From contig CALLAE010000038.1 in assembly GCA_938002665.1 (NCBI GenBank), forward strand, positions 1-64,000: DNA of 64,000 nt, in the 5' to 3' direction. A program made the translations under genes and the position numbers. Position 1 is the first letter of the stretch, and the number at the start of each line of letters is the position of its first letter. Shown here piece by piece: positions 10,364 to 48,796 of this stretch. This DNA is from an uncultured Saprospiraceae bacterium (GTDB taxonomy: Bacteria; Bacteroidota; Bacteroidia; Chitinophagales; Saprospiraceae). The notes under the pieces were generated by a model. The model worked only from the letters and a program-made list of their open reading frames with translations. It was not told the DNA's origin and did no database searches.

Positions 10364-10438
10364 AATGTGTCTTGCTTTGTAGTCAAGATAGCTAGTCTGA
10401 GGGAACTTCAAAAATTAGTATCAAAATAAAATATTCAA

Positions 10439-11779: not shown

Positions 11780-12427
11780 TTACAAAGACCAACTATTCTG
11801 GCCTTCCTCTAATTTCATACAACCATTCCAAGCACCAGGCACTGGATCATAAGCTAGGTGCTCTGTGGCAATAATCTCATTACTGAAATAAGTACTGATT
11901 CCTAGATTTCTGATATTGTGGATAAACTTATGGAAGTAATAATCTTCTAACTCTGAGGACTCTAGTTCTGACTTATCTGCTTTAATAAGTTTCCAACGTC
12001 TATCATTTTCTTCGTCTGAGACCTTACCCATATATGTTTCTACAAAGGGCTTTATATAATCTATTGTTAGTTCCTCTATAGAAGCTGCACCATCAGTTTC
12101 GACGCGAGAAAGCACTTGATTTAGTCCATTTTTGAAATCCAACTGGTCTTCTTTTTTCCATAGTTTGGCTAAGGTATTATCAACCATCTGGATAGCGGAC
12201 ACTGCCTTATATCCAGGCGAGGCTTCTGTCGTAGGTAACATAACATCTAGAATATCTTCTATTAAGGTTGTCTCAGAGGTACTGAGAAAAATGGGCTTCC
12301 ACTCTGCAGCTATTTCTTTGAGAGTTCCCTCTTGCTTACAACTGTTCATAAAAACCGCCATACCTGAGGCAGTCATTGTATATCCTAGGCCCAGTGAAAG
12401 GGTCTTTACAGCGCTTCTTCTTTTCAT
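11780..12427 (-). CDS. Gluconate 2-dehydrogenase subunit 3-like protein (Tat)
   Basis: 215 residues with a twin-arginine-type leader (MKRRSAVKTLSLG, hydrophobic run, then NSC). The remainder matches the small subunit family PF13618: an LIEDILDVMLPTTEASPG segment and a C-terminal PVPGAWNGC motif. In related enzymes this subunit helps export and maturation of the FAD-containing GMC subunit. It lies 25 bases downstream of the GMC gene on the same strand, as expected for a two-subunit sugar or sugar-alcohol dehydrogenase in the periplasm. A separate cytochrome subunit is not adjacent, but fused c-type cytochromes occur in the 20-30 kb operon. Confidence 0.85.
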   Translation of the reverse strand: MKRRSAVKTLSLGLGYTMTASGMAVFMNSCKQEGTLKEIAAEWKPIFLSTSETTLIEDILDVMLPTTEASPGYKAVSAIQMVDNTLAKLWKKEDQLDFKNGLNQVLSRVETDGAASIEELTIDYIKPFVETYMGKVSDEENDRRWKLIKADKSELESSELEDYYFHKFIHNIRNLGISTYFSNEIIATEHLAYDPVPGAWNGCMKLEEGQNSWSL

Positions 12428-12452
12428 GCGATTATCTTTTAGATCCTTTATT

Positions 12453-14174
12453 TTATAAGTTACCTTTTTTCAATTCTTTCGCTGCATAATCTGCTGCCCG
12501 CGCAGTCAAGGCCATATAAGTGAGCGAGGGATTCTGACAAGCGGAAGAGGTCATCCCAGAACCATCTGTGACAAAGACATTCTTCACTTCATGTATCTGA
12601 TTCCATTTATTGAGTACTGATGTTTTAGGGTCTTTACCCATTCTTGCAGTACCCATTTCATGTATACCTAAGCCCACACCATAATTTCTTTCATAGCCTT
12701 TTACATTCTTAAAACCAGCCGCTTCAAAAATTTCTACTGCAGCACTTTGCATATCTTCTCTCATCTTCTTTTCATTCTCTTTGATACTAGTTGTAAACTT
12801 GATAATAGGAATTCCCCAGTCATCTAGTTTTTCTGTCAGTTCCATCTTGTTTTCATGATACGGTAACATCTCGCCAAAACCGTTCATTCCGATTCGCCAG
12901 TCGCCAGGCTTAAATAAGTTATCCTTAAACTCCGGACCATAGGCCATCTCCCCTACACCTTTCCACCAGTTCTGCCTACTCGCTCCTCCTTGATAACCAT
13001 ACCCTCTCAGAAAATCTTTTTTAGTTTCTTGCTTTCCTGGCAAGTTTCTAAATCTAGGAATATAAAATCCATTCGGTCTTCTACCTTTGTAATACTTGTC
13101 TTCATATCCCTCCACATCAGCACTAGCTCCCACCTGAAAATGATGATCCATCATATTATGACCTAGCTCTCCACTATCATTACCCATTCCATTAGGAAAA
13201 CGGTTACTCTTACTCTGCATGAGTATGGCTGTAGAATGCACAGTAGAAGCATTGCAGAATACGATCTTTGACTCAAAGTCATAAGTCTTCTTGCTTTTAG
13301 CATCTATGACTCTGACACCTGTAGCTCGTTTCTTATTCTCATCATAGAGAATCTCATAGGCAATAGAATCTGGACGCAAAGTCATGTTACCTGTTGCCTC
13401 TGCTGCAGGCAAGGTAGAAGAGTTACTGCTGAAATAAGCACCATATGGACAACCTCTCATACATCTGTTCCTATACTGACATTCTCCTCTTTTTCCAAAC
13501 TGTTCTCCATCACTCGTAATATGTGCTGTCCGTCCGATAGTCAGTCTCTTGTGCTTCCACTTGCTTTCCATTTGCTTTTTCAGGTCTGCTTCTACACAAG
13601 TAAAATCCATCGGCTTTAGAAACTTACCATCGGGCAATTGTTCTAGGCCCTCATTCATACCACTGATACCGACAAAGCTTTCTACCTTATCATACCAGGG
13701 TGCAAGATCTGCATACCTTATAGGCCAATCTACAGCGACACCATCCCTTGCATTAGCTTCAAAATCCATAGGGCTCCACCTATAGCTCTGTCTACCCCAT
13801 ACCAGCGATCGTCCACCTACCTGATAACCTCTTATCCAATCAAATCTGGTACCCTCAGTTTCTTTATAAGGATGCTCTGAATCTTTAACAAAATGATGGA
13901 CATGTTCTGGTCTGACAGTATAACCTGTTCTTCTTTGCTTAGGATAATCCTTAGCAAGTACTTCCTCAGAAAGGGCATTGCCATTTTCTAATTCCCAAGG
14001 ATCAAGATTAGCCGTTTTGTAATCCGTGACATGCTTTACATCTCTACCACGTTCTAGCACTAAGACTTTCATTCCTTTTTCACACAACTCCTTCGCTGCC
14101 CATCCTCCACTGATACCTGTACCGATAACGATAGCATCATAGCTCATAGGGCTCTTGTCATTAAATAATGGCAT
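12453..14174 (-). CDS. GMC-family FAD oxidoreductase, large subunit
   Basis: 573 residues. The FAD site is IVIGTGISGGWAAKEL at the N-terminus. The catalytic His-Asn pair lies in GIHEMGTARMG and SACQNPSLT near the C-terminus. It lacks its own signal and probably leaves by Tat together with subunit 3 encoded downstream. Three cysteines at about 232, 238 and 242 (C-x5-C-x3-C, followed by P) sit where FAD glucose dehydrogenases of the GMC type carry an iron-sulfur cluster, so a cluster is possible here. It likely oxidises a sugar or glycoside, perhaps at C3, in line with the DUF1080 neighbours. The substrate is inferred, not seen. Confidence 0.88.
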   Translation of the reverse strand: MPLFNDKSPMSYDAIVIGTGISGGWAAKELCEKGMKVLVLERGRDVKHVTDYKTANLDPWELENGNALSEEVLAKDYPKQRRTGYTVRPEHVHHFVKDSEHPYKETEGTRFDWIRGYQVGGRSLVWGRQSYRWSPMDFEANARDGVAVDWPIRYADLAPWYDKVESFVGISGMNEGLEQLPDGKFLKPMDFTCVEADLKKQMESKWKHKRLTIGRTAHITSDGEQFGKRGECQYRNRCMRGCPYGAYFSSNSSTLPAAEATGNMTLRPDSIAYEILYDENKKRATGVRVIDAKSKKTYDFESKIVFCNASTVHSTAILMQSKSNRFPNGMGNDSGELGHNMMDHHFQVGASADVEGYEDKYYKGRRPNGFYIPRFRNLPGKQETKKDFLRGYGYQGGASRQNWWKGVGEMAYGPEFKDNLFKPGDWRIGMNGFGEMLPYHENKMELTEKLDDWGIPIIKFTTSIKENEKKMREDMQSAAVEIFEAAGFKNVKGYERNYGVGLGIHEMGTARMGKDPKTSVLNKWNQIHEVKNVFVTDGSGMTSSACQNPSLTYMALTARAADYAAKELKKGNL

Positions 14175-14403: not shown

Positions 14404-16425
14404 ATGATTCGAAATGCCTTATACTTATGCTGTCTTACTGCTGTACTAGCCACTATTTTGGTTTTCCATAGTTGCGATAGCGTGACCACTAAGCCTGATG
14501 TTTCCACCTATACCAATAAGTTCTATCCGACGTCCAAACCATGCACTAGATGGTGGTGGTTTGCTACTGAGATAAAAAAGCCAGACATCAAACACCAACT
14601 GGATTGGGCTAAAGACCATAATTTTGGAGGTGTGGAAATTGCCTGGGTCTACCCGCTCTATCGCTACCAGCGCATGTATGAGACTAAGTACAATAGATAT
14701 TATCCTAAAGACACCACAGCCCAAAAGTGGTTAAGCCCAGAATGGTCAGAAATGGTAGAATACACTAAGTTGTATGCAGATAGTATAGGCCTAGCTTGTG
14801 ACTTTACTTTTGGTAGTGCATGGCCTGTGGCAGGCAGTAATCTGGATGAAAAGTATGGAACAAAAATATATGGTGACAGCTCCTTCAGACAGACACTAAC
14901 TTTTTCTTGGGCTTGGCCTGATACACAATTGGTCATTAACCATCTAGATGCAGCAGCTTTTGAAAAATTTGCAGAGCCGATAGCCCCAGCACTAGAGTCC
15001 GCCCTCCAAGGCAGTAAGTCCGCTCTCTTTACTGATTCGTGGGAAATTAAACTAAATGATAAATACAAAATATGGACAGATGGTTTTGGAGAGACCTTCG
15101 AGGAAGCATTTGGTTATGATCTTAGGCCGTACATGGACCAGGGAATAGATTCGTTTCCTGATGCTAGATATGATTATATGTTACATCTGGATAAATATGT
15201 CACTGAGGGATTCTATAAGCCTTACGTAGAAAAATGCAAAGAGCTGGGTGCTTGGTCAAGGGTGCAATGTCTTGCAGCTCCGACTGATGTCATGTCTACC
15301 TACGGACTAGTAGATATCCCTGAGACAGAGGCCCTACTTAATAATCCCAACTACTCTCGCATAGTGAGCTCAGCGGCCTGCCTAGCCGATAAGCAAATCG
15401 TATCCAGCGAAACCTTTACTTGTATGTATGGCTTTCCAAGTACCTATCTCAGAAAAGAGCAAACAGCAGATCTCAAGATGGTAGCAGATGCACTATTTGC
15501 TGAAGGTGTCAATCATCACTTCTATCATGGTATGCCATACAATCCACAGGGTTCGGACACTATAGAATTCTTTGCCACTACTTACTTTGGACCAGGTGGC
15601 AGTCTGACAGAAGAGTTACCAGCTTTTAATAATTACATGGCCCAAGTCTCTGGTCAGATGCAGCGAGGCAAGACATATTCTGATATAGCTGTGTATATTC
15701 CTTATGAGGATGGTGTTATGAAAGGTGCTCTGCCAGAGGAACGTAGACGTGTATGGGTATGGGGCGAATATGAGTTGCGGTATGCTTATACTTCTGAAGA
15801 AACCAAGGGGTATCATCCGATATGGATAAATAGAGATTTCCTAGATCTAGCTTACTTAAAAAATGGCAAACTAGAAATAGGGGCTGCTACTTTTACCTCT
15901 CTCTATGTGGATGTAAAATACCTTGATATCAGAGCCCTTAAGCGTATCTATGACTTGGCAAAAGAAGGCTTAGCTGTTGTCTTTAAAAACAAAGTATCTC
16001 AACCTGGAAAAAACAAAAGTCAAAACTTTGAGGCCATGCAAAACGATCTGCTAGCGCTACCCAATGTTTCTCCAGATATGTCCAACATTGTACAGCACAA
16101 GCCTCTACTAAAAGGTGACATATTACCTAGTTACTGGGCAAGAGAACTAGACGACGGATCATTACTTTTATTTTTGGCGCAGCTATCAGCTCAGGAAGTA
16201 GTCTACCCAGTCTATTCTGGAGATTCTTACATGGCTAGTGCCGATACCATAAACCTTACTATCACTTATAATGACAAGAGCATACAAGAGCAGGTTATAT
16301 TCAAACCCTATCAATCTGTATTACTAAATATCTCTAAGGAAGGAAAGCTGACATACTTAGATATAAATTTTATTCCAAAAGATCCTATCATCAGACCAAA
16401 AGAAGAGCAAAGGATGTATTTTTAA
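14404..16425 (+). CDS. GH106-like glycosyl hydrolase (rhamnosidase-like)
   Basis: 673 residues. The first 25 form a signal that ends near HSC, so a lipoprotein is possible. The region from residue 48 (TRWWWFATEI, then FGGVEIAW) matches the N-terminal TIM-barrel start of GH106 alpha-L-rhamnosidase-like proteins. FTDSWEI near residue 207 carries a candidate catalytic Glu. The protein is shorter than typical GH106 enzymes and lacks the C-terminal lectin-like domains, so it may be a divergent branch. It is followed 21 bases later by a GH28 gene, which supports a pectin or rhamnogalacturonan substrate. Confidence 0.7.
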   Translation: MIRNALYLCCLTAVLATILVFHSCDSVTTKPDVSTYTNKFYPTSKPCTRWWWFATEIKKPDIKHQLDWAKDHNFGGVEIAWVYPLYRYQRMYETKYNRYYPKDTTAQKWLSPEWSEMVEYTKLYADSIGLACDFTFGSAWPVAGSNLDEKYGTKIYGDSSFRQTLTFSWAWPDTQLVINHLDAAAFEKFAEPIAPALESALQGSKSALFTDSWEIKLNDKYKIWTDGFGETFEEAFGYDLRPYMDQGIDSFPDARYDYMLHLDKYVTEGFYKPYVEKCKELGAWSRVQCLAAPTDVMSTYGLVDIPETEALLNNPNYSRIVSSAACLADKQIVSSETFTCMYGFPSTYLRKEQTADLKMVADALFAEGVNHHFYHGMPYNPQGSDTIEFFATTYFGPGGSLTEELPAFNNYMAQVSGQMQRGKTYSDIAVYIPYEDGVMKGALPEERRRVWVWGEYELRYAYTSEETKGYHPIWINRDFLDLAYLKNGKLEIGAATFTSLYVDVKYLDIRALKRIYDLAKEGLAVVFKNKVSQPGKNKSQNFEAMQNDLLALPNVSPDMSNIVQHKPLLKGDILPSYWARELDDGSLLLFLAQLSAQEVVYPVYSGDSYMASADTINLTITYNDKSIQEQVIFKPYQSVLLNISKEGKLTYLDINFIPKDPIIRPKEEQRMYF

Positions 16426-16446
16426 ATATATAATCACCCTACGTCT

Positions 16447-17949
16447 ATGCGATTCATTTGTTATGTTTTTGTTCTTCTGTATTCAGGTCTTTACTCTCAA
16501 GAGTACAATATTATAGACTATGGTGCTATCGGTGACGGTAGTACCCTTAATACAGCAGCCATACAAAGAGCAATAGACACAGCACAGGTGGCTGGAGGTG
16601 GAAAAGTGATTATTCCTTCAGGCTTATTTCTTACTGGAAGTATTTCACTAAAGTCAGGCGTAGAGTTACATTTAGAAAAAGATGCCACTCTACTAGGAAG
16701 TACTAAATTCCAGCATCATCAAAAAGTAGAGCGATTTTACCAAAGAGCACTGATCATGGCAAGGGACCAAGATGACATAGCTATCACAGGTTCTGGCACT
16801 ATCGATGGGCAAGGTCGAGAAGCAGCTCTACTGACTGACAGTCTTTTCAAAGCTGGAATTCTGGATATGAAATACTACAATCAAGTAGAGCTAAGACCTC
16901 GCTTCTATATGCGCCCTATGCTCATCGTACTAGTAGGTTGTAATAAGGTAAAGATTTCTGACGTGCAGCTTAAGAATTCTGCATCATGGGTACAGCATTA
17001 TGATCGCTGTACTAACCTCACTATTACAGGTATAAGAGTAGAAAGTGATGCCTATTGGAATAATGACGGACTGGACATCTCAGATTCCAAAAACGTCTAT
17101 GTTGCAGATTGTTATATCAATTCTGCTGATGATGGCATCTGTCTGAAATCCCATTATGTAGATGAGCTACTAGAAGATGTTGTTATAGAAAATTGCACTG
17201 TAAGATCTAGTGCCAGTGCTATTAAGTTTGGCACCAAGTCAGAAGGGGGCTTTAGAAATGTCACAATCAAAAACATTAAAATCTTTGACACTTACAGATC
17301 AGCAGTCGCAATAGAAAGCGTGGATGGAGGCTCACTAGAAAATATAAAGATAGACAGCATAGAGGCGACCAACACTGGAAATGCGCTATTTATAAAACTA
17401 GGGCACAGAGAAGCAGAAAGGCAAGTGGGCAGCTTGAAGAATGTTTCTATAAGCAATATGAAAATAGTGGTGGCTTTTGAAAGGCCTGACTACGCATATG
17501 AGGTTAGAGGCCCAGCCCTACCATTCTTTCATAACACCTTCCCCTCCTCGATAACAGGGATGCCAGGCTACAAAGTAGAAAACGTCACTCTGGAAAATAT
17601 AGAAATAAATTATCCCGGCCGAGGCAACAAAGCGATGGCCTATGCTTCCATCTATATGCTGGATAGTATCCCAGAAAATTATGCAGATTACCCAGAGTTT
17701 TCTATGTTTGGTGAGCTACCTGCCTGGGGCTTATATATACGACATGTTGCTGGCCTGACTATGAAAAATATTAAACTTTCCATCAGGGATCCAGATTACC
17801 GTCCAGCTATAGTTATAGACAAATCTCAAGAGATAAATATGGAAAAGCTCCATATAAAAGGAGACAATAAAACCCATAACCTTATCTACAGAAAGACTGC
17901 CTCCATCAAAACGGATAAGCCTTACAAACTTTTACACCTAGATGAGTAA
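16447..17949 (+). CDS. GH28 polygalacturonase-like glycosidase
   Basis: 500 residues. An N-terminal signal peptide is followed by the right-handed beta-helix start YGAIGDGSTLNTAAIQRAID. The catalytic region has NNDGLDI and SADDGICLKS with the paired Asp residues, and a later SAIKFGTKSEGGFRN stretch. This fits exo-acting GH28 enzymes, such as polygalacturonase or rhamnogalacturonan-type hydrolases, in the periplasm. It follows the GH106-like gene and overlaps the next gene by 8 bases, forming a three-gene operon. Confidence 0.87.
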   Translation: MRFICYVFVLLYSGLYSQEYNIIDYGAIGDGSTLNTAAIQRAIDTAQVAGGGKVIIPSGLFLTGSISLKSGVELHLEKDATLLGSTKFQHHQKVERFYQRALIMARDQDDIAITGSGTIDGQGREAALLTDSLFKAGILDMKYYNQVELRPRFYMRPMLIVLVGCNKVKISDVQLKNSASWVQHYDRCTNLTITGIRVESDAYWNNDGLDISDSKNVYVADCYINSADDGICLKSHYVDELLEDVVIENCTVRSSASAIKFGTKSEGGFRNVTIKNIKIFDTYRSAVAIESVDGGSLENIKIDSIEATNTGNALFIKLGHREAERQVGSLKNVSISNMKIVVAFERPDYAYEVRGPALPFFHNTFPSSITGMPGYKVENVTLENIEINYPGRGNKAMAYASIYMLDSIPENYADYPEFSMFGELPAWGLYIRHVAGLTMKNIKLSIRDPDYRPAIVIDKSQEINMEKLHIKGDNKTHNLIYRKTASIKTDKPYKLLHLDE

Positions 17950-20374: not shown

Positions 20375-23300
20375 CTACAACTCCTTAATCTTAATATTCC
20401 TGTATGCCACCCTATCAGAATGATCTTGCAGAGCTATATACCCTTCCTTATAAATGCCAAAGCCTTTCATATCCTTAAACTTACTTTTAGCTATGCGATC
20501 TGCCCACTCTGGTGTATACATCTCAAAATCGACTAACTTCTCTCCATTCTGCCAGTGCTCTACCTTCCCATTTTCTATACGCAGTCTAATTTTATTCCAT
20601 TGATTAGCAGGGAGAACATTTTCTTTGGAGCAGGCTATCATATCATACAAAGCTCCTGCTCTATGAGTGATGTACTGTGCATCAGGATGACAGTTATTAT
20701 CAAGGACCTGCATCTCAGGTCCCGTTTGCCATACATAATCATACTCCTCAGACTCATGCACATTATAGATGATACCACTGTTACCACAATCAGTAATTTT
20801 CCATTCTAGGCTGAGCTCATAATTCCTGTAGCTCTTATCAGTAATCAGGTCTCCACCATCTTTAGTCGCATAAGTTCCATCAGGCTTTCTGTAGGTCATT
20901 AGTGTCAGGGCACCATCTACTACTTTCCAGCTAGAGCCTATACTTTGCTTTTTATAGTTTCTCCAGCCCTTAGTTGTCTTTCCATCAAAAAGCAATTTCC
21001 AACCCTCTGCTCGCTCCTCGGCAGTAAGTACATTTATTCCACTGAGATCAACTGTTGCTTTAGCACCTACCTTGCCTTTAGGAATACAATTCATAGTATA
21101 CCATGCTTCTGTAGACCACAAAGTCTCATCTGTAGCACTCTTTATCCTGGGCATAAGATGTACATAGACAACATGATCTTCTTTCATGCCATCTAACTCA
21201 AGGAATACTTTTGTCCTATCGGCAGAAACATTGACAGAAAGAATATCCAGATGCTTTTCGTCTAGCTTAGGGCCACCGTATTCTTTGGTAGGAAGATAGT
21301 ACCATTGCTTTATTTCATAGTCATTGGGGCTGTTACCTGCTGTCAATGCGAGTGGCGCTGTAAAGCTTATTTCTATACCATTGGAGCGGGCACTAATAGA
21401 TAACATTTCAAAGGTTGTCTTACCATTATAGATCATGCGTTGTAGCCCGTACCACAATTTTCTATCCTGCTGCCAGTTTCCCGTGGAGCCCACCCCACCA
21501 GCATACAAGGCGCCATCAGGACCCCACTGCAATCTGTTTACTCCTGCCTCTAAGCCTTGGATAAATCTGAAAACACAGCCCTGATATTCGCCATTTACTT
21601 TTTCTACATATACCCGCTTGACTCCTCCATGTGTCACCTCTCCATGTATCATCTGATTCTTATAAGGGCCATCATTGAGTAACAGCGGTGTAGATGGGGA
21701 GTTACCTATCTCATTCTGTGGCAACCAGACAAGGGGTTTCTTTTCCTTGAGTCCAGCCGTACCTGCAAAATCTACAGACCTAGAACCAAACCATGCGCCT
21801 TTAGTAACATGCACGATTTTACTTGCGGGCAGCCAGTCACCTTGGTTATCAGCAACAAACACCTCCTGATCTACACCTATCCCGATGCCATTAGGAGTCC
21901 TAAGTCCATTCGCCATAAATTCTATCTCTCCAGAATCTTTATTGACCTTTATAGCACTGCCTCTTTGCTTAGGTTGGTTGAGTGCGCTGGCACCTCCAGG
22001 TTGTATACCTGTCGCTAAGGTCGCGTAGAAATGGTTATCCCTATAAGCCATACCAAAACCGAACTCATGGAAATTAGCAGTCACGTCCCAGTCGTTACAC
22101 AAGACCTGATACTCATCTATATACTCGTCACCGTTGGTGTCTACTAGTCGAGTCATTTCTTGTTTCTGCATAATATAGATATCACCATCTACAACACTTA
22201 GTCCTAGAGGCTCTGCTAATCCACTAGCTATCTTCTTAGCAGTCATCTTCGCTGGCATCCCCGACTGCACTCCATCTATGATATAGACTGCACCTTCTGC
22301 ATCCCAGGTGCTTACCACCGCCCGCCCATCCGGCATAAAATCAAGCCCTCCTATCCTAGACACAAAGTCATCTGGTCTCGCTTGGGTCATATCATAGCTA
22401 GGATGGACAGCTTCCAGAGCACTCTGGTCACCGGGAATATTAGACTTAGATCTGAAAACTTTTCCAGCGACCAGACCTTCTCTCGTCTTGTGATAAAGTG
22501 CCGTAGCAGGTACAGGGACAAATTCTCCAGAGTCAGTTTCTCTCCACAAGAAATACAATGCTTGCCCGCCTCCATTTTCAAAAAACTGAATTCTGATAGG
22601 ATGATAGCCAGACTCCAAGGCAACCTGAGTATCTACATTACTGGTTCCATGCAAGCCATCATTGTCTATCACCTCCTTCCCATGCAAAAACAATTTAGAC
22701 CCATCATCGCTAGCCAGCCTCAAAATAGTTCTGGTATCACTACTCACCTTAAGATAGCCCTCTATATCCAATCCAAAGCGCTCATCCAATAAGCCGAAAT
22801 CATCTCCTGCCATATTCACTTTCTTAATAAGATCAGTATACTCAGGATCAGACCCCCAATCAAGATCTGACAAAGAACTCTTTTCTCCCTCATAGGAGTG
22901 ACAAGCAACATATAAGCCAGGACTCAGCCCTGCAGGGTCTATCGTACTATCTGCGCTAACTAATTCTTGCTTATCGATAGGATCACTACTTTCTAGCTTC
23001 TTTCTTAGCTCTTCATCCGCGGCATCCATACTCATGATATAACTTATCATCTCCTGAAGATCTTCTTCAAGGAGATCAGGGTGGGCATTCATGACACTGC
23101 CGCCCCATACACCAGTACCTCCGATGCTTACTTTGCTAGCAAGCATCTTCTGGTTAGCTTCTGTATTGTCATATTTCTTAGCTATAGATTCATAAGAAGG
23201 ACCAATTGTTTTCATTATTTCATTATGGCAAGTCCTACAGTCACTACTATTTATGAGTGCTAAACCTTTGGGTATATTCTCCTCTTCAAGTACATTCTCA

Positions 23301-24004
23301 TTTTCGATCTTTGGATCTCCTATATATACAGCTACTACTTTTGTGGTATCGTTAGACTCCAGCTGGATCACAGAATTGTTGGTTGTCTGACCATTGACGA
23401 GTAGATCATCATGAGTGGAATTAGTGCCTTCGTCCAGAACCACTACACAACCAGTGGGTACAGACGAGGTTACAAAAGTTCTGTCAAATTTTATAGAGCT
23501 AGCCGCACCTTCTACGTACTCTGGTTTTTCTTGGACTGATATCACCTTTCCGTCTGGCAAGGAGAGTTGATATTTCAAGGTTACTTGGCCTGCATCAAAG
23601 GCATGTCCCTTATAATTAACAACTACGGATAGCTCTTTAGCTCCTTGTCGCACTTTCCATGGATTCTTTACTTCATTGACAACATAGGCTGACCCTATAG
23701 TGCTGGGCTGCGGGCCATGCTTAGTGGTGTAGACAGCACCATCGAGATTGACTCCACCTTTCCACAACTTATAGAGGGATGAACTTTGCGTAGAATAGGC
23801 TGCCCACATGTTCTGGTGGAGCGCTAGGGTTATCATTCTAGGATGTCCATCTAACACTGATCTAAATACCCAGGGATCTAAAGGGCGCTCCTTGCCGAGC
23901 ATAGGATCAGAGCCTTCAATGACTTTTTTGGTATTTGTTGTAACATCAGTATTACATGATATTGTAAAGCAGATTAAAAGCGTAACAACGGAGAGGTATT
24001 TCAT
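20375..24004 (-). CDS. Large lipoprotein: cytochrome c, PA14, dehydrogenase-like propeller and DUF1080
   Basis: 1209 residues. A lipobox (TISC) places the lipid at Cys17. Domains in order: an unassigned beta-rich region (30-235); a c-type cytochrome with CRTCH at 256-260 and a likely Met ligand near 305; a PA14-like sugar-binding domain (about 400-505); a soluble-glucose/sorbosone-dehydrogenase-like propeller (about 550-860); an Fn3/Ig-like domain (865-975); and a DUF1080 domain (1000-1209, FDGKTTKGW, NSGIIYNV). One polypeptide could thus bind, oxidise and hydrolyse a glycoside and pass on the electrons. It is last in a leftward four-gene operon, 41 bases after the SGNH gene. The role is inferred. 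Confidence 0.82.
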   Translation of the reverse strand: MKYLSVVTLLICFTISCNTDVTTNTKKVIEGSDPMLGKERPLDPWVFRSVLDGHPRMITLALHQNMWAAYSTQSSSLYKLWKGGVNLDGAVYTTKHGPQPSTIGSAYVVNEVKNPWKVRQGAKELSVVVNYKGHAFDAGQVTLKYQLSLPDGKVISVQEKPEYVEGAASSIKFDRTFVTSSVPTGCVVVLDEGTNSTHDDLLVNGQTTNNSVIQLESNDTTKVVAVYIGDPKIENENVLEEENIPKGLALINSSDCRTCHNEIMKTIGPSYESIAKKYDNTEANQKMLASKVSIGGTGVWGGSVMNAHPDLLEEDLQEMISYIMSMDAADEELRKKLESSDPIDKQELVSADSTIDPAGLSPGLYVACHSYEGEKSSLSDLDWGSDPEYTDLIKKVNMAGDDFGLLDERFGLDIEGYLKVSSDTRTILRLASDDGSKLFLHGKEVIDNDGLHGTSNVDTQVALESGYHPIRIQFFENGGGQALYFLWRETDSGEFVPVPATALYHKTREGLVAGKVFRSKSNIPGDQSALEAVHPSYDMTQARPDDFVSRIGGLDFMPDGRAVVSTWDAEGAVYIIDGVQSGMPAKMTAKKIASGLAEPLGLSVVDGDIYIMQKQEMTRLVDTNGDEYIDEYQVLCNDWDVTANFHEFGFGMAYRDNHFYATLATGIQPGGASALNQPKQRGSAIKVNKDSGEIEFMANGLRTPNGIGIGVDQEVFVADNQGDWLPASKIVHVTKGAWFGSRSVDFAGTAGLKEKKPLVWLPQNEIGNSPSTPLLLNDGPYKNQMIHGEVTHGGVKRVYVEKVNGEYQGCVFRFIQGLEAGVNRLQWGPDGALYAGGVGSTGNWQQDRKLWYGLQRMIYNGKTTFEMLSISARSNGIEISFTAPLALTAGNSPNDYEIKQWYYLPTKEYGGPKLDEKHLDILSVNVSADRTKVFLELDGMKEDHVVYVHLMPRIKSATDETLWSTEAWYTMNCIPKGKVGAKATVDLSGINVLTAEERAEGWKLLFDGKTTKGWRNYKKQSIGSSWKVVDGALTLMTYRKPDGTYATKDGGDLITDKSYRNYELSLEWKITDCGNSGIIYNVHESEEYDYVWQTGPEMQVLDNNCHPDAQYITHRAGALYDMIACSKENVLPANQWNKIRLRIENGKVEHWQNGEKLVDFEMYTPEWADRIAKSKFKDMKGFGIYKEGYIALQDHSDRVAYRNIKIKEL

Positions 24005-24045
24005 AGTGCTGAGAGGGGGATATCTTTTAGATTTCTTTGTAGTAA

Positions 24046-24804
24046 TTATTTCTGCTTAGCCAAGGCCCTTTCCAAAATAGGCTCCATAACGCTATACCCC
24101 TTTGCATTGGGATGGACACCATCATAGCCCAAGTCTTCCTTTAGAGCATTTTCCTTATCTGCCATTGCTGAAAAGTAATCTACATAGGTATGGTCATTTT
24201 GCTCCGCATACTTTTTTATCATTGCATTGAGGGCCACAACTTTAGGGGCAGGTTGCATTCCTGCTTTCCACGGAAAATCATAAGCAGGTAAGACCGAACA
24301 CAAAAGGACCCTTATCCCATTGGCTACTGCGATTTCTGCCATAGAACTTATATTATCGAAAGTCATCTCTATGGTAGAGGGCCCTGTGTTACCAGCAATG
24401 TCATTTATCCCCGCAAGTATAACTACCGCAGCAGGTCTTAGATGTACCACATCTTGTCTGAATCGGATAAGCATTTGCGGAGTGGTCTGCCCACTTATAC
24501 CTCTATTGATATAAGGGCTATCCGTGAAGAAGTCAGCACTAAAGTCTGGCCATCCTTCTGTGATGGAATTTCCAAATAAAACTATCGGGGGTTCTTTTAA
24601 TTTCATTGAGGCTAACTTTTCGTTCTCTGCTTGATATTTTTTGAGATTGGGCCAGTCCATAGGTGGTTCTTCTAGTTTTACATCTTCACTTTTTTTATCT
24701 TTTTTAACAACAGCTTCTTGGACATTTTTTGGGGATGTAGTAGCATGGCAACTGATCATAAAGAAAACTGTAATAGTTATGATAAGTAGGATGAAATGTT
24801 TCAT
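24046..24804 (-). CDS. SGNH/GDSL hydrolase lipoprotein
   Basis: 252 residues from the ATG at 24804. I chose this start because it overlaps the upstream stop as ATGA and begins directly with a signal peptide ending at MISC, the lipid attachment site. An upstream start at 24828 would give a longer leader. The catalytic blocks are visible: GNSITEGW (Ser), then GQTTPQML (Gly), ILAGINDI (Asn) and DGVHPNAKGY (Asp and His). Such enzymes remove acyl groups such as acetate from sugars. In this operon it probably deacetylates the glycan before oxidation. Confidence 0.88.
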   Translation of the reverse strand: MKHFILLIITITVFFMISCHATTSPKNVQEAVVKKDKKSEDVKLEEPPMDWPNLKKYQAENEKLASMKLKEPPIVLFGNSITEGWPDFSADFFTDSPYINRGISGQTTPQMLIRFRQDVVHLRPAAVVILAGINDIAGNTGPSTIEMTFDNISSMAEIAVANGIRVLLCSVLPAYDFPWKAGMQPAPKVVALNAMIKKYAEQNDHTYVDYFSAMADKENALKEDLGYDGVHPNAKGYSVMEPILERALAKQK

Positions 24805-27800
24805 TGGTTGTAATTTAAATATATCCAATCTGCATTCAAGACAAACTGGTCCTGATTAAAATCGTTTTTGAAAACTAAATATAAATCATCAATGCCTTCA
24901 GTATGCTTGAGATCTATTAGGTACTTTTCTCGCTTTTCCCTTAGTTCGTCATGATATCCCAATTTTTGTGTGCCCAGAAGCTCGCCCTCTCTGCTTTCCC
25001 TTCTAACTTCTATATATCCAGCATAATTATATCCAGCAACATAATGCGCCATAAGGTCTAACCCTTCAAGGTCATCAAAACAAATCTTTTCAAATCTCAA
25101 AATAGTATTTTCTTTCAGCGCACCCACCAAGGTAGCAGACCCGTTATCCCAGATACCTGTACCTTCAGAGCGCTCTGCTGCATCTTCTGCTTCTAATAAT
25201 GGTGGGATAAATACTATCTCATTCAAGGCAGAAAGCTGACTATTTTTTAACTCTGGGCTACCCTGATCTAGATAAGAGGCCATGAGAATGTACTTACCCT
25301 TCATATCCGTTACAGCATGCTTTTCAAAACTGAGCTCACCACTTAGTCCTAGCAACTCCTCTTCTATTACTTTCTCAGGATCTAAAGAAAGGATATAGCT
25401 AACCATAGCTTCTACCTCTGGCACTGAAAGCTGGGGATGAGCACTCATGAGGGCTTCGCCCCAAAACCCATGACTACCTTTGATGATGTTTCTCACAAGC
25501 TGACTCTTATCTACCAGGCTATACCTCTGTGCAATCTCTACATAAGAAGGGCCACTTACCTTCGTCTTTTCCGCATGACAAGATTTGCAATCAGAGTCTC
25601 TTATTAATTCTAGTCCTTTCGGTACAGCATTCTGCTGATGACCAGCAGTGGCAAGGATGAGGTCTTCGCCTTCAGGTATATAGGTTAATGTGACTCTTAC
25701 TTTAGAAGAATCTATAGAATTAGTTTTTGTAGAACCATCCTCTTTGTCAGTAACAGAGACATCATAAGAGACTTTCTTTCCCTTCCAGAACACGACATTG
25801 TCTGTTTCTAATTTCATCTTTATCTCTGGTTCTTCATTTCCAGCCAGTATCTTTTGATTGAATTCTGAACTGGAGCCTAAGCCATCTGTAACCACTAGGC
25901 GCACATCATACTCCCCTGGCTTTCCAAAGGTGCACCTTGGATTCTTTTCTGTAGACTCCACTTTATCTTCTCCGGTAAAGTACCATTCATACTTGAGCTC
26001 ATCTTTATCATAATCCACAGACTCAGCTGCTGAAAACTGAATATTTAATGGCACTGCTCCTACCTGACGATCAGCAGTAAACTTAGCGACGGGTGGTCTG
26101 TTACCTCTTAGATACTTCACACGATTCAGCCTAGCGTCCATATTTCTGGAATTCCACTTTTGCCCATATTCCAAGATATACAACTGGCCATCAGATGCAA
26201 AAAACATATCCATAGGATGCGAATAACTGGTACTCGGCATGAAGGGCTCAGCTTTCACATAAGCTCCTGAAGTGTCTAATGAGAGCAAGTAGATCCAGTC
26301 TCGCATCCATTCATAGACGAAGAGTTTATCTTCAAAATATTCAGGAAAGGTCTGTGTGACCTCTTTAAAATCTGACTTATGAAATACTGGACCAGCCATG
26401 GGATTAACTCCACCGCTGCCGAGCCATGGAAATTCTTCTGAGTCGCCATAGCCATACCAGATCATGGAAGGCTGTGCCGGTGGCAATTTTTTAAGGCCTG
26501 AATTATTAGGGGAATCATTGATCAGATTAGCAGCATCAAAGAGTTCTTTAGATTTTTCACTTTTGAAATCGTAATCAAAATATACTTGGTTATTTCCTCT
26601 CGTATATGGCCAACCCCAAAACCCCGCTTTCTTTGCTTGATTAAATTCGCCTAACCCCTCTGGCCCTCGTAAACTATCCCGCACTCCTGCATCAGGCCCG
26701 ACATCTCCCCAGTATAAATAATCAGTCTTACTATCTATAGAGAATCTAAAAGGATTACGCAAGCCCATAGCATAGACCTCTGGTCTGGTATTTTCTGTCC
26801 CCTCAGAAAACAAATTACCATCTGGAATACTGTAAGTGCCATCAGGCTCAGGTCTTATCCTCAAAATCTTTCCTCTGAGATCATTTGTGTTAGCAGCCGA
26901 CCGCTGGGCATCCCATAATTGCCTTCCCACTCTCTCATCTATGGGTGCATATCCTTCAGACTCGAATGGATTAGTATTATCACCCATACCTATATATAGG
27001 AGACCATCTGCATCGAACTCGATAGAGCCACCACTATGACAACATTCTCTGATGGTAGGAATCTCTAGCAGGACTTTTTCAGTATTATGAGAAAGAGAGT
27101 CGCCCGTGAGAACAAACCTAGATATACGTTGCCTCGAAATTTTACCTGGATCAGAATAGCAAAAATAGACCCAGTTGTTTTCATTATAATTGGGGTCAAC
27201 TGCTACGCCTAGCAAACCATCTTCATTGCCATAAAACACTGCTATGCTATCGATAGTTGTTGTGCTTTCCATTTCAAAGTCGTAAAACTTGATTGCGCCT
27301 CTTCTCTCTATATAAATGATGCCCTTGCCAGGCAACTCATCTAGTTCCATAGGTTCATCTAGATTAAAATCTAAAACTTCATTGGAAAATCTATTCTCCT
27401 CTGGCACCCTGAGGGTTTTTACTAGGGAGTAATCTCTCTTATTATTGCCGATAGCATATTTCAGTCCACCTAAAATATGTTTAAGAAAAAGCTCCTCTTT
27501 GAACGATTCTTTGGTATGGCCCATTCCTGTGTAGAAAGCTCTTCCACCATCATACTCATGAAACCAAGACATAGGATGTACAATACCTTGCGTTCCCCCG
27601 GTATAAGTCTCTTCATCTATATCTATTAAAACCCTGACACTGTCATAGTAGTTCTTAAAGTTATACCACTCGTCAGTTCTCTCCCAGCGATCTGGCAAAT
27701 GGTCTATCGCAGGATGTACAGACCCACTAACTTTGAGAGTAGCTTTTTGGATGTCAGGGTGACCAGCAAACTGTGCACCTGACAACTCATTATACCACTG

Positions 27801-28163
27801 CCAGTCATCTTCTGTATCCGTAGCTGAATGTATTCCTACATAACCACCTCCTGACTGAATGTATCTTTCAAAGTCCGCTTCCTGTTTATGATTCAACACA
27901 TCACCTGTTGTATTAAGGAATACCACAGCTGAATACGTTTTGAGTTTTTCTTCATGAAAGTATGAAGCATCCTCTGTGGTATCTATTAGAAGGTTATGCT
28001 CTGCACCCAGTCTGAGTAGGGCCAACTTAGCTTCCGGGATACAATCATGTCTAAAACCTGCAGTCTTACTAAAAACAAGTATTTTCTTTTTGCCATCTGT
28101 ACACGAACAAAAAAACAGGAGGATAGCGGCTACAAAAAATGAATATTTATTTAATAGAATCAT
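24801..28163 (-). CDS. Large lipoprotein: ThuA, sugar dehydrogenase, PKD, cytochrome c and CBM6-like
   Basis: 1120 residues. The signal ends in an FFCSC stretch, giving a likely lipidated Cys near 21. Domains in order: ThuA-like (about 27-240, with GIHSATD and the HPMSWFHEYDGGRAFYTGMGH end); glucose/sorbosone-dehydrogenase-like propeller (260-685, with GLLGVAVDP and GLRNPFRFSID); PKD (about 690-775); a linker; a c-type cytochrome with CKSCH at 859-863 and a likely Met ligand near 906; and a CBM6-like beta domain at the end (985-1117, EAEDA). ThuA proteins are linked to uptake or processing of oxidised disaccharides. It is the second gene of the operon. Confidence 0.85.
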   Translation of the reverse strand: MILLNKYSFFVAAILLFFCSCTDGKKKILVFSKTAGFRHDCIPEAKLALLRLGAEHNLLIDTTEDASYFHEEKLKTYSAVVFLNTTGDVLNHKQEADFERYIQSGGGYVGIHSATDTEDDWQWYNELSGAQFAGHPDIQKATLKVSGSVHPAIDHLPDRWERTDEWYNFKNYYDSVRVLIDIDEETYTGGTQGIVHPMSWFHEYDGGRAFYTGMGHTKESFKEELFLKHILGGLKYAIGNNKRDYSLVKTLRVPEENRFSNEVLDFNLDEPMELDELPGKGIIYIERRGAIKFYDFEMESTTTIDSIAVFYGNEDGLLGVAVDPNYNENNWVYFCYSDPGKISRQRISRFVLTGDSLSHNTEKVLLEIPTIRECCHSGGSIEFDADGLLYIGMGDNTNPFESEGYAPIDERVGRQLWDAQRSAANTNDLRGKILRIRPEPDGTYSIPDGNLFSEGTENTRPEVYAMGLRNPFRFSIDSKTDYLYWGDVGPDAGVRDSLRGPEGLGEFNQAKKAGFWGWPYTRGNNQVYFDYDFKSEKSKELFDAANLINDSPNNSGLKKLPPAQPSMIWYGYGDSEEFPWLGSGGVNPMAGPVFHKSDFKEVTQTFPEYFEDKLFVYEWMRDWIYLLSLDTSGAYVKAEPFMPSTSYSHPMDMFFASDGQLYILEYGQKWNSRNMDARLNRVKYLRGNRPPVAKFTADRQVGAVPLNIQFSAAESVDYDKDELKYEWYFTGEDKVESTEKNPRCTFGKPGEYDVRLVVTDGLGSSSEFNQKILAGNEEPEIKMKLETDNVVFWKGKKVSYDVSVTDKEDGSTKTNSIDSSKVRVTLTYIPEGEDLILATAGHQQNAVPKGLELIRDSDCKSCHAEKTKVSGPSYVEIAQRYSLVDKSQLVRNIIKGSHGFWGEALMSAHPQLSVPEVEAMVSYILSLDPEKVIEEELLGLSGELSFEKHAVTDMKGKYILMASYLDQGSPELKNSQLSALNEIVFIPPLLEAEDAAERSEGTGIWDNGSATLVGALKENTILRFEKICFDDLEGLDLMAHYVAGYNYAGYIEVRRESREGELLGTQKLGYHDELREKREKYLIDLKHTEGIDDLYLVFKNDFNQDQFVLNADWIYLNYNQ

Positions 28164-28211
28164 AAGATATCTGTTTACGTAAGATAGCTCTCTAGTCTAG
28201 AAGATAGCATT

Positions 28212-30458
28212 TTACTTGTTCCTTTTGGTCACATAATCTATTCTCTCAAGAGTAGTTTCTAGCATCTGAATATCATACATCCTCTGACCTTGTGGGGGAT
28301 AGTTCCTCATCTCCTTTACTAAGTCTTCAGTTATACTATAATCAGCTGAAGCAAAAGCATTCCTTACGAAATTTAGCAGTTCTTTTATATTATTATCCGT
28401 AAACTCATCATTCTGTTCTATACCAGGCATCACACTTTTATAGGAGTAGCTCTTACCACCCATAATAAAAGGCCCACTAAGACCATATAGTGATATAAGT
28501 ACTAGTCTATCTTCTCTACCTGATACAAATTCTGAATCCAATAACGGCGGCGCAATATCTTTCTTGCCTTCACCGTCTGCACCATGACAGGTCGCACAAT
28601 AGGTCTGATAGTGTACCAGACCTTCTGTTCTGCTATCTTTGAGTTTTAAATTCTCCTCATAGTAGTAAACAGAATCTCCTCTTTTCTTACGTGATACCAC
28701 CTTTTGTAATTGTTCCATCCATAGTTTTAAGCTTGGCTCGTTTTCATTTTCTAATTGCTCCATAAAAAAGTCCTCCTTTCCGATGGCATCAGCAAGTATT
28801 GCTTCCACCATCGCAGAATTACCTGACCTAATCAATAACTTACTATAGACCTTATACAATTTTTCGTTATCGTAGATACCTAGGCTTGCTAAGTGGGCCG
28901 CTAAGGTAAAATCAGTATTCGCTTGACCTAAAGAGATCAAATGATCTATCTGTACTTTAAGCCAATATTCTTTAGACACATCCCACTGTGTCAAAATATC
29001 AAGTGCATGAAATCTAAGATGCATAAAGTCATGATCTAGGCAAGCGCTCAGGTCCTCCTGGCTCAATGCCTCTAGCCCTTCCAAGCTCCATAGACTATGA
29101 AGAAGATTTATCTCTTCTTTGCCCGATCTTAAATGTTGTTTTAACTCTTGAACATATTCTAATCTTTCATTATAGACTAACTCATGCTGGGCCTTATCTC
29201 TCAAAAAAGCATTATCTCCATGAAGAAATTTAAGAGGCTCACTTGTTATCTCATAAGACAAGTTCTTTGGTGCAAGTTCGTTATGGGATAGCCTGATTAT
29301 CCTTCCCATACCTGAAACTTTATCCAGACCACCTTTAAGAATTTTCTCTCTCAAATAAGAGGTCATATAAGCCTTATGTTGAATGATGCCTCGGTGCATA
29401 TCCACGATATAGATATTACCGTCTGGGCCAGTCTTCATATGTACAGGGCGAAAGCCTTCATCAACTGAAATGAGATATTCAGACGTCGTATCTGTTTGCA
29501 CTGCTCTAGAATCAAACCCATTCCGCTCTATCTTTAATCGTTTGATCGCATTGATCTCTGGCAGAGCTACAAAAGCATGATCGTTCCATTTTGAGTTTAG
29601 CGTTTCTCTATAGTAAAGAGGTCCACAAGCAGAGGTGGCATTTATCAGTTTTCCTTCTTCGTCTAGTACACCATTCTGGTAACCCCGATTTACTGCGGTC
29701 GCTTGGAGTGGGAAGACCCGCTGGTCTGAGGCAATAGACTGCAGATTATTTTCATTTAGCTTTAGATATTTGTTTGTAAATAGAGCATTGGGTAATATAC
29801 GGTCAGTGGCTATGAGTAAGGAATTAGTATTATATACTAGACGACCATAGTTATCTGTGGATAAGCCCCATTGACCTCTTGGGGTGGTATACTCTTTGAG
29901 CCATCGTCCTTTCTTCCTTTTGTATCTGGCATTAGAACAAGTACTATAGATCCAGTTATCCATATTTAGAGTCAGAGAGTTCGGCATATGCTCGACATTA
30001 CCATCGACTGCATAGACAGAATCGACTACAGTTTTCTTACCTGGTTGAGAACCATTAATTTCTACAAAATACAAGAACGGTGGTTCTGCATAAAGTAGCC
30101 CTCCATAGACCAAGAGCATAGTGCGGGGCAGTACCAGACTATCTAGGAAGATATCAACTTTATCCATAATCCCATCTCTATCAGTATCTTCTAGTATCTT
30201 GATTTTATTGACTGGGGCATCTTCATTTATACCTTTTATATTAGGCATGTAGGCTGGCATTTCTAGTACCCATATTCTACCTCTTTGATCAAAGTCTATG
30301 GCTACGGGAGCATTTAGCGTTGGTTCTTGAGCGATAAGCTCTAGTGATACATCGTTTGGAAAAGTGTAGTCAGAAAAAAAATTACTTGTATCTTCAGACC
30401 TGTCCGAGGCACATGAGCATAGATAAACTAGAGTAAGATATAATAAAAATAGGCGCAC
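28212..30458 (-). CDS. PVC-type membrane-bound dehydrogenase-like lipoprotein with cytochrome c
   Basis: 748 residues from a GTG start. A short leader ends near LCSCAS, giving a lipidated Cys16. The first half is a propeller of the putative membrane-bound dehydrogenase type (DIDFDQRGRIWVLEMP, then DRDGIMDKVDIFLD). A helical HEAT-like stretch lies in the middle (about 400-600). A cytochrome c domain ends the protein, with CATCH at 621-625 and a likely Met in VMPG near 677. Proteins of this plan are frequent in Planctomycetes and marine Bacteroidota but poorly characterised. It is first in the operon, with a -7-like box 12 bases before the GTG. Confidence 0.82.
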   Translation of the reverse strand: MRLFLLYLTLVYLCSCASDRSEDTSNFFSDYTFPNDVSLELIAQEPTLNAPVAIDFDQRGRIWVLEMPAYMPNIKGINEDAPVNKIKILEDTDRDGIMDKVDIFLDSLVLPRTMLLVYGGLLYAEPPFLYFVEINGSQPGKKTVVDSVYAVDGNVEHMPNSLTLNMDNWIYSTCSNARYKRKKGRWLKEYTTPRGQWGLSTDNYGRLVYNTNSLLIATDRILPNALFTNKYLKLNENNLQSIASDQRVFPLQATAVNRGYQNGVLDEEGKLINATSACGPLYYRETLNSKWNDHAFVALPEINAIKRLKIERNGFDSRAVQTDTTSEYLISVDEGFRPVHMKTGPDGNIYIVDMHRGIIQHKAYMTSYLREKILKGGLDKVSGMGRIIRLSHNELAPKNLSYEITSEPLKFLHGDNAFLRDKAQHELVYNERLEYVQELKQHLRSGKEEINLLHSLWSLEGLEALSQEDLSACLDHDFMHLRFHALDILTQWDVSKEYWLKVQIDHLISLGQANTDFTLAAHLASLGIYDNEKLYKVYSKLLIRSGNSAMVEAILADAIGKEDFFMEQLENENEPSLKLWMEQLQKVVSRKKRGDSVYYYEENLKLKDSRTEGLVHYQTYCATCHGADGEGKKDIAPPLLDSEFVSGREDRLVLISLYGLSGPFIMGGKSYSYKSVMPGIEQNDEFTDNNIKELLNFVRNAFASADYSITEDLVKEMRNYPPQGQRMYDIQMLETTLERIDYVTKRNK

Positions 30459-30462
30459 TTAG

Positions 30463-30470
30463 TCAAGGTA
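30463..30470 (-). promoter_or_regulatory. -7-like box TACCTTGA, 12 nt before the GTG at 30458
   Basis: It is the likely promoter of the four-gene leftward operon and supports the GTG as start. It faces the 30514-30543 promoter in a 89-base divergent gap. Confidence 0.4.
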
Positions 30471-30513
30471 CAATAGTATCCTGAAAATGTCGGTGAATAT
30501 TGCAAAAAAGAGC

Positions 30514-30543
30514 TTGTCTGAGAAATACAAAGTCGTACTTTAG
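30514..30543 (+). promoter_or_regulatory. Promoter-like TTG-N19-TACTTTAG before 30548
   Basis: TTG at 30514-30516 and TACTTTAG at 30536-30543 have the 19-base spacing expected for Bacteroidota promoters. The box starts 12 nt before the ATG at 30548, which supports that start over the TTG at 30500. Confidence 0.5.
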
Positions 30544-30547
30544 GCTT

Positions 30548-31750
30548 ATGCTTAAAATTGCTACACCTTTTTTACTTTGTGTATTCATTGGAATTGGATG
30601 TTATTCTTCTGAGCCTATAGTTTTGGATTTGTTGTCAGAGGATCTTTATCCTACTCTTGTCAAAATAGGTGGAAATGCAAATTACAACTTAGAGCAAGGT
30701 ATCCTCACAGGATCAGCAGTTATAAATACTCCTAATACTTTTCTGTGTACTCCAAAGCCTTATAGCAATTTTATTCTAGAATTTGAAGTATGCATCGACC
30801 CTCGACTCAATTCAGGAGTACAGATCAGATCAATAGTTATACAAGACAAGAAAAATAAAGCGCTCAAAGGGTACCAAGTAGAGATAGACCCTTCAGAAAG
30901 AGCATGGAGTGGTGGTATATATGAAGAAAAAGACAGAGGATGGATAGCCAATCTCTCGGCCAATCCAGATGGAAAGATGGCTTTCAGAAATGGCGCATGG
31001 AACAAATATCATATAGAAGCCATAGACAGCAGTATCAGAGTCTGGGTCAATGGTGTGAACACGACTAACTTACTAGACAATAGGTATAGACAGGGCATCA
31101 TAGGACTCCAGGTGCACTCGATAGAAGACAGTAGCAGAATAGGTACTATGGTGCAGTGGCGGAATATTCACTTACAGACTACAGAGTTAGAAACTAATCG
31201 CTTTGCCCTCGATTCGGAGAATCCAGAAATTAATTTACTGACAAATCATTTAAGTCAAAAAGAAAAAGCGGAGGGCTGGCAATTGCATAGTGAAGAGGAA
31301 AAAGTCTGCATCCTAGGGGGAGAAAGGATAGACTTATTCACGAGAGAGGGCGATTATGAGCTAGCCCTGGAATACACCTTAAACAAAGGTGGACGAGCAG
31401 CTCTAATTTACGGACAAAATGTAGAAAACCAAGACCTGCTCACTTATGCCATACTAGATGATAACAATGCCCCCAAAGGCACCATGAACGACACCAAATC
31501 AGGTTCCCTCTACGGCAAAATAGAAGCCACAAATCTCTCCACAGAAGGAAGAAACAAAGGCCTGCGCTCACATGACCAATGGACTCAGGTACAACTCAAA
31601 TGCAGAAATGGACATGTAGAACACTGGCTCAATAATGATCTCGTCGTCAGTTACAAGCTGAGAGATCTCAAAGAAGTCAAGGAGAACCATACAATCTATC
31701 TTACAACTGAATCTGACAGCATCTGTATGAGAAACATCAAGTATAGATAG
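30548..31750 (+). CDS. Lipoprotein with two DUF1080-like domains
   Basis: 400 residues from the ATG at 30548, which gives a signal peptide ending IGIGC and therefore a lipoprotein. Two jelly-roll domains follow. The first, about residues 25-210, has FILEFEVCID, NSGVQIRS and GYQVEID and is a clear DUF1080 match. The second, about 225-400, is shorter and more divergent (DYELALEYTLNKGGRAALIYG and a late HVEHWLNNDLVVSY). A tandem arrangement suggests that one domain may serve in binding. The gene reads away from the cytochrome operon and probably shares its regulation. Confidence 0.78.
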   Translation: MLKIATPFLLCVFIGIGCYSSEPIVLDLLSEDLYPTLVKIGGNANYNLEQGILTGSAVINTPNTFLCTPKPYSNFILEFEVCIDPRLNSGVQIRSIVIQDKKNKALKGYQVEIDPSERAWSGGIYEEKDRGWIANLSANPDGKMAFRNGAWNKYHIEAIDSSIRVWVNGVNTTNLLDNRYRQGIIGLQVHSIEDSSRIGTMVQWRNIHLQTTELETNRFALDSENPEINLLTNHLSQKEKAEGWQLHSEEEKVCILGGERIDLFTREGDYELALEYTLNKGGRAALIYGQNVENQDLLTYAILDDNNAPKGTMNDTKSGSLYGKIEATNLSTEGRNKGLRSHDQWTQVQLKCRNGHVEHWLNNDLVVSYKLRDLKEVKENHTIYLTTESDSICMRNIKYR

Positions 31751-48532: not shown

Positions 48533-48796
48533 GTACGCTATTTAATCTATTCTTTTTAAGAAATATCTTCGTTTCTACGTGTCTAAAGCTACATATATCA
48601 CGTCTAATTAGCGGTAGTTATTCTATTAATTGCATCTGAAAGAAGACCTACGACCATTGATAATACACATTGCAATAATGTAAATGTATAAATAATTGAT
48701 AATTAGGACTTATCATTTTTATTTTCTTATGCACAACCACCTAATGGGTCAGTCTTCAAGAATTGATTGCTGCTCAAAAAGTTGTTATTTTACAGT

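Follow-up and report, generated by a model that had tools for sequence, protein, structure and literature searches.

The leftward gene row at 20375-30458(-) of the stretch analysed here (the window, 64,000 nucleotides of an uncultured Saprospiraceae genome) encodes three large lipoproteins of 748, 1120 and 1209 amino acids (aa), each of which combines a propeller with a haem c domain. We consider it probable that these haem-propeller lipoproteins belong, as envelope components, to the known pathway that cleaves glycosides by oxidation instead of hydrolysis, through 3-keto intermediates. We infer the catalytic steps, the electron path and the substrate from domains, motifs, gene order and co-occurrence. 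The general idea with the best support, already raised in the first-pass annotation of this DNA, is a tie between haem c and the oxidative cleavage of glycosides; the evidence for it goes beyond that of the annotation. The window is part of an 87 kb contig (C38) of a 3.76 Mb assembly that is 87.5 percent complete, and a profile scan returned uncultured Saprospiraceae as the closest named relatives of the source genome.

The gene row and the 1209-aa fusion protein

The open reading frames were recovered with the coordinates and lengths previously assigned to them, namely 20375-24004(-) (1209 aa), 24046-24828(-) (260 aa, an SGNH hydrolase), 24801-28163(-) (1120 aa), 28212-30458(-) (748 aa) and the divergent 30500-31750(+) (416 aa). 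Since the gaps within the leftward row measure only 48, about 0 (an overlap) and 41 bases, the row is consistent with a single operon; the Bacteroidota promoter pattern TTTG-N17-21-TAnnTTTG had no match within the window. Each of the three large proteins contains exactly one CxxCH, as had been proposed, and carries a cytochrome c domain above the Pfam gathering score (PF00034), so that three of the six PF00034 matches of the whole assembly belong to this row. N-termini of the lipobox type were recognised by eye in all five proteins. Among the accessory domains named in the first-pass annotation, ThuA, PA14, PKD and DUF1080 were above the Pfam cut-off, whereas the CBM6 match in the 1120-aa protein stayed below it (20.6 against 28.9 bits).

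The 1209-aa fusion consists of an N-terminal beta domain, a cytochrome c domain, a PA14 domain, a GSDH-like propeller and a C-terminal DUF1080 domain of the 3-keto-glycoside eliminase type. Its AlphaFold model showed a predicted local distance difference test score (pLDDT) of 85 and a predicted template modelling score (pTM) of 0.77. The DUF1080 domain (20384-21004(-)) matched the 3-keto-disaccharide hydrolase family PF06439 with 168.5 bits (cut-off 26.8) and contains all the motifs of BT2157, namely NSG, E-x-Q-x-LD, HPD and QDH, which are invariant or nearly so. Structural comparison of this domain with BT2157 in complex with 3-keto-glucose (8rr2) returned a Z score of 30.7 and a root mean square deviation (rmsd) of 1.7 over 211 residues, and 3osd scored a Z of about 30. 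The best reading of these motif and fold data is that the fused DUF1080 domain would cleave 3-keto-glycosides.

The cytochrome c domain of the fusion (23027-23266(-), PF00034) bears its CRTCH at residues 256-260, and M305 is the candidate axial methionine. Profile comparison aligned it with the haem domain of the 1120-aa protein (25383-25619(-), CKSCH, detected by Pfam) at a probability of 99.8. The CxxCH and the distal methionine, M305 in the 1209 family and M906 in the 1120 family, are invariant, and the intact class I domains support the claim of haem c. The PA14 domain (22538-22789(-), Pfam) showed a fold match to the sugar-binding PA14 structures 6x8a and 6xa5. The propeller occupies 21425-22402(-) and has invariant H646 and R702. 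The N-terminal beta-rich domain (residues 37-231, window 23312-23896) contains the invariant stretches WVFRSV and HGPQP; it had no match in Pfam, and the model is mostly of high confidence there.

The 1120-aa protein comprises a ThuA domain (27453-28085(-), PF06283, E 7e-74), a GSDH propeller (Pfam part at 26529-27362(-)), a PKD domain, the cytochrome c domain and the weak CBM6 match. The 748-aa protein is composed of a DUF7133 propeller, a middle part with no assigned domain and a cytochrome c domain (CATCH), which matches the cytochrome subunit of fructose dehydrogenase with an E value of 3e-5. The propellers had been described as sugar-dehydrogenase-like, and this description held: the GSDH profile matched the 1120-aa protein with 125.4 bits (cut-off 25, E 4e-36), the 748-aa and 1209-aa propellers matched DUF7133 instead (E 2e-73 and 4e-8, respectively), and the model of the 1209-aa protein matched the PQQ-type sugar dehydrogenase 2ISM (Z 20.8, rmsd 2.9, 288 residues), PQQ being pyrroloquinoline quinone.

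Pathway genes in the window and in other genomes

A 3-keto-glycoside gene cluster, overlooked in the first-pass annotation, lies at 2.5-14.2 kb of the same window. Its rightward part encodes a transporter of the major facilitator superfamily (MFS; 3602-4804(+)), a DUF1080 lipoprotein with partly lost motifs (4785-5693(+)), a Gfo/Idh/MocA oxidoreductase that is likely a 3-keto-sugar reductase (5705-6856(+)), a TIM-barrel 2-hydroxy-3-keto-glucal hydratase matching PDB 8ro4 over its full length (6993-8045(+), E 1e-166) and a DUF1080 protein whose type pairs with LacAC in relatives (8042-8764(+)). The leftward part contains two recognised types of 3-dehydrogenase, both with twin-arginine starts. 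One is a BT2158-type Gfo/Idh/MocA protein, or glycoside 3-dehydrogenase (8891-10411(-)), which matched 8tdf with an E value of 4e-94 and NF058561 with 468.6 bits, under the equivalog cut-off of 750. The other is encoded by the adjacent genes at 11780-14174 for a LacC-like small subunit of the Gluconate_2-dh3 type (11780-12427(-)), the twin-arginine start of which is accompanied by a lipobox-like cysteine, and a LacA-like large subunit, a GMC dehydrogenase dependent on flavin adenine dinucleotide (FAD; 12453-14174(-)), which resembles the large subunit of fructose dehydrogenase (8k6k, E 8e-39).

The same genome contains a second small cluster of the 3-keto type, in which a pair of DUF1080 genes accompanies a Gfo/Idh/MocA gene of the BT2158 type (G000:C147:2294-5075, L220). 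The neighbouring GH28 and GH106 genes (14404-17949) were tried as a clue to the substrate and dropped, as neither recurs in the 80 listed loci related to the fusion; therefore, no substrate is proposed. The GH106-type rhamnosidase (14404-16425) is only 673 aa long; the profile match is confined to the region from the middle to the C-terminus, and an internal deletion seems to have shortened the N-terminal part.

The recurrence of this arrangement was investigated by scanning 84,980 species genomes with a profile for 1209-like proteins. At least 80 loci were returned; the counts given below refer to the matches listed. These loci are mostly from Saprospiraceae, and also from Fulvivirga and others, and in 73 of the 80 a DUF1080 domain forms the C-terminal end of the protein. 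Dyadobacter, Rhodocytophaga, Adhaeribacter and Pontibacter have a shorter form of about 1000 aa that is devoid of DUF1080. In three Dyadobacter loci (L138, L142 and L146) this unfused cytochrome-PA14-propeller gene directly follows a SusC-SusD pair, as checked with Pfam in one of them.

At 69 listed loci at least 1.2 kb of readable DNA was present behind the 1209-like gene. The first gene there encodes an MFS transporter, the commonest type and the family of the 3602-4804 protein, in 19 loci, a Nuc_H_symport-type transporter in 12 (one verified with Pfam), a Gfo/Idh/MocA reductase in two and a DUF1080 protein in one, while the MFS type was never found upstream in the listed loci, where up to 10 kb were examined. 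Copies of the Gfo/Idh/MocA protein that are 60-71 percent identical to the one in the window are encoded behind the fusion in other genomes. Two loci (L048 and L089) showed the single-strand order 1120-1209-MFS-DUF1080-Gfo/Idh/MocA-hydratase; this order is nearly full in L074, and large parts of it occur in L083, L085, L088 and L100. The other two proteins also recur, independently, beside pathway genes: a 1120-like gene stands ahead of DUF1080 and Gfo genes in L225 and after DUF1080 in L239, and a 748-like gene is divergent to a tandem DUF1080 gene in L222, as in the window, forms a row with Gfo, TIM-barrel and tandem DUF1080 genes in L232 and is divergent to a Tat-type Gfo gene in L233. The exact row 748-1120-SGNH-1209 was seen in no other locus examined.

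At the locus of the nearest relative, G004 (L047:11854-14532), the usual transporter gene after the fusion is replaced by a gene for a protein of 892 aa, which contains two CxxCH and matches GSDH weakly. A frame of the same length, likewise with a weak match to GSDH, exists in the genome of the window (C108).

Electron path and alternative explanations

The 17 family genomes that carry the fusion all encode a GMC dehydrogenase of the same LacA clade as that of the window. So do 19 out of 20 further genomes that have the fusion or its N-terminal part (36 of 37 together), compared with eight of the 20 family members that have no fusion. Within the family the association returned a Fisher value of 7e-5, a figure weakened by shared ancestry and by several incomplete assemblies. 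A replacement of LacA by the fusion as the oxidase, suggested by two genomes with no small subunit (G005 and G024), was dropped: the LacA-clade protein is present in all 17 fusion genomes, the gene being cut at a contig end in G005 and split into two fragments in G024.

LacB is the cytochrome of LacABC. This dehydrogenase is a three-component enzyme (PMC9007349). A CxxCH gene was found directly beside LacA-LacC neither in the window nor in 14 relative loci (L206-L219), and in one of these (L208) such a gene lies one gene away from LacA. Because LacAC is flanked by no cytochrome gene, fructose dehydrogenase has a cytochrome subunit and the 748-aa haem domain resembles that subunit, the haem c of the large lipoproteins may take over the role of the cytochrome. 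The haem would relay electrons, probably those of LacAC or possibly those of the propeller itself.

In the scheme that we propose, the PA14/CBM-type domains would hold the glycoside, whose C3 would be oxidised in the periplasm by the LacA/LacC-type FAD dehydrogenase exported by twin-arginine translocation (Tat), by the BT2158-type dehydrogenase, or by both. The fused DUF1080 domain of the 1209-aa protein, along with the 8042-8764 protein, would cut the 3-keto-glycoside into a 2-hydroxy-3-keto-glycal or a 3-keto-sugar. This product would be imported via the MFS protein and converted to a hexose by the hydratase (6993-8045) and the Gfo/Idh/MocA reductase (5705-6856), while the class I haem c of the 1209-aa, 1120-aa and 748-aa proteins would pass electrons towards the respiratory chain, in place of a cytochrome subunit of the LacB or fructose dehydrogenase type.

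Several observations weigh against this scheme. In about half of the 69 loci the 1209-like gene is not directly followed by a pathway gene, and LacA occurs with no fusion in the eight family members mentioned above, so that the fusion is dispensable to LacA. In the window 6.2 kb and several genes separate the fusion from LacAC, and the two are non-adjacent in the relatives examined. One genome (G077, L144), the exception among the 20 further genomes, has the fusion and showed no LacA-clade protein. Moreover, co-occurrence in related genomes is not independent evidence.

A different division of labour would make the propellers the oxidase: as quinohaemoproteins they would oxidise the sugar with PQQ or a similar quinone and deliver the electrons to the haem c of the same chain, and DUF1080 would then cleave the product. 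The presence of haem within the chain fits this idea, as does the propeller fold, which is that of 2ISM, sGDH and Asd. In the predicted-structure comparisons, which cover the 1209-aa and 1120-aa propellers, AA12 and the PQQ domain of Coprinopsis pyranose dehydrogenase were among the matches of the 1120-aa model. All sequences compared in the three families (76 for 1209, 11 for 1120 and 7 for 748) have a histidine, 14 residues ahead of a Tyr/Phe, in register with the base of GSDH, and R702 (1209) and R469-N470 (1120) are invariant. The kinship of the three propellers rests on fold and on this histidine register, because profile comparison among them gave no significant alignment. Both this histidine and the Arg-Asn pair of GSDH were placed by sequence register and not by superposed coordinates; the pair is kept as RN in the 1120-aa protein and reads RT in the 1209-aa protein. 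Separate 3-dehydrogenases are at hand, and PqqC was over the cut-off in none of 61 genomes including this one, although 14 control genomes gave none either, leaving the search with no positive control. PQQ can also be imported, as for E. coli Asd. The substrates of known GSDH enzymes are free sugars, which are mostly oxidised at C1, and not glycosides oxidised at C3. Designed propellers and lactonases fit the 1209-aa model nearly as well as 2ISM does (Z 18-20); therefore, the fold alone names no function for this propeller. On balance, the quinohaemoprotein explanation appears rather unlikely. That the propellers carry out an additional oxidation of their own is a serious possibility, against which we lean slightly. 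The earlier claim of glycoside oxidation and cleavage thus stands for the tie to the 3-keto pathway, through the neighbouring genes in the window and behind the 1209-like gene in other species and through the fused DUF1080 with its BT2157 motifs, but not for the propellers as the oxidase. In all 11 homologues of the 1120-aa protein the putative base H376 is preceded by two adjacent cysteines (C374-C375, window 27036-27044), an arrangement that we take to be reminiscent of the vicinal disulphide near PQQ in methanol dehydrogenase.

The closeness of the lactonases, and of regucalcin structures that also score near the GSDH ones, could likewise indicate another envelope role for these multi-purpose folds and their haems, such as lactone hydrolysis, metal or substrate binding or redox sensing, with a tie to glycosides only via DUF1080, ThuA and the carbohydrate-binding parts. 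The repeated siting beside 3-keto pathway genes and SusCD, together with the invariance of the His/Arg and haem ligands, makes this quite improbable. That the row is a general envelope gene row with no functional tie to glycosides would agree with the singular order 748-1120-SGNH-1209, but it is hardly credible given that homologues of all three large proteins are repeatedly encoded next to pathway genes elsewhere. Finally, the 1209-aa protein might be a complete single-chain enzyme, in which the quinone-type propeller would oxidise the bound glycoside, its own haem c would take the electrons and its own DUF1080 would eliminate the aglycone from the 3-keto product. We judge this unlikely; if true, a single redox protein, anchored by lipid and connected to respiration, would break a glycosidic bond.

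Other features of the window and relation to known systems

The SGNH/GDSL hydrolase lipoprotein (24046-24828(-)) matched PF13472 with an E value of 1e-30, and an in-frame ATG nine codons inside is a likelier start than the listed TTG (24828). It had been credited with a deacetylation step, which found no support: an SGNH gene stands beside none of the 80 listed loci related to the fusion, and its role as a conserved deacetylase of the module was rejected. The divergent lipoprotein (30500-31750(+)) contains two DUF1080 stretches, as had been noted (PF06439, 160 bits, cut-off 26.8), and its start is likely an internal ATG (M17, about 30548). It was not upheld as a cleaving enzyme, since HPD and QDH are absent, the C-terminal domain has lost the catalytic-type motifs, and the first domain resembles the two-domain protein 4jqt and is of a non-canonical type. 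Judged from these motifs, the second domain is probably not catalytic and the protein is more likely a binding protein. Farther on, a 1641-aa SprB-repeat protein (48767-53692) has a P domain of the proprotein convertase type and a signal for type IX secretion.

Most of what is known about oxidative glycoside cleavage comes from gut Bacteroides and from enzymes that stand alone. In Saprospiraceae and other Bacteroidota this chemistry seems to be linked to haem c via a protein that is conserved in dozens of species and that current annotation calls merely DUF1080 or glycosyl hydrolase. A literature search returned no open paper joining ThuA, DUF1080 and a cytochrome, or ThuA and a sorbosone dehydrogenase. 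The first-pass annotation had spoken of an undescribed system; the pathway itself is already known, while no description of the haem-propeller-DUF1080 fusion was found and, by the literature searched, the chain that joins haem, PA14, propeller and DUF1080 looks new, as does its link to LacA.

The hydratase, the BT2158-type dehydrogenase and the DUF1080 eliminase type of the BT2156-BT2159 pathway of Bacteroides thetaiotaomicron (PDB 8tda, 8rr2, 9fbe, 8ro4, 8tdf) are all found in the window too. In that pathway, however, DUF1080 is stand-alone and devoid of haem, PA14 and propeller, whereas the window adds haem-bearing fusions and LacA/LacC. The lactose 3-dehydrogenase LacABC of Caulobacter crescentus, which is accompanied by DUF1080 (PMC9007349), shares with the window the grouped genes for LacA/LacC-type, DUF1080, transporter, sugar isomerase-like and reductase proteins. 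In contrast to Caulobacter, the window and its relatives have no LacB cytochrome gene beside LacA-LacC, and haem c is located in large fused lipoproteins, which offers a possible answer on the fate of the electrons of a LacA-type 3-dehydrogenase where the LacB gene is not adjacent. Fructose dehydrogenase (7w2j, 8k6k) resembles LacA in its large subunit and the 748-aa haem domain in its cytochrome subunit, but the window has no separate gene for such a subunit and a different substrate is expected. The 748-aa protein also passes the profile of the PVC-type haem-binding CxxCH proteins (TIGR02604, DUF7133) with 132.2 bits against a cut-off of 122.2, which the 1209-aa and 1120-aa proteins do not reach, and the pathway suggests a candidate function for this large unexplained haem-propeller class. 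The fungal pyranose dehydrogenase of Coprinopsis cinerea (AA8-AA12-CBM1) follows the same logic, in that one chain unites a propeller of the PQQ type with a cytochrome and a part that binds carbohydrate, quinone binding by the propellers of the window being putative; the fungal enzyme has a b-type haem and neither DUF1080 nor ThuA.

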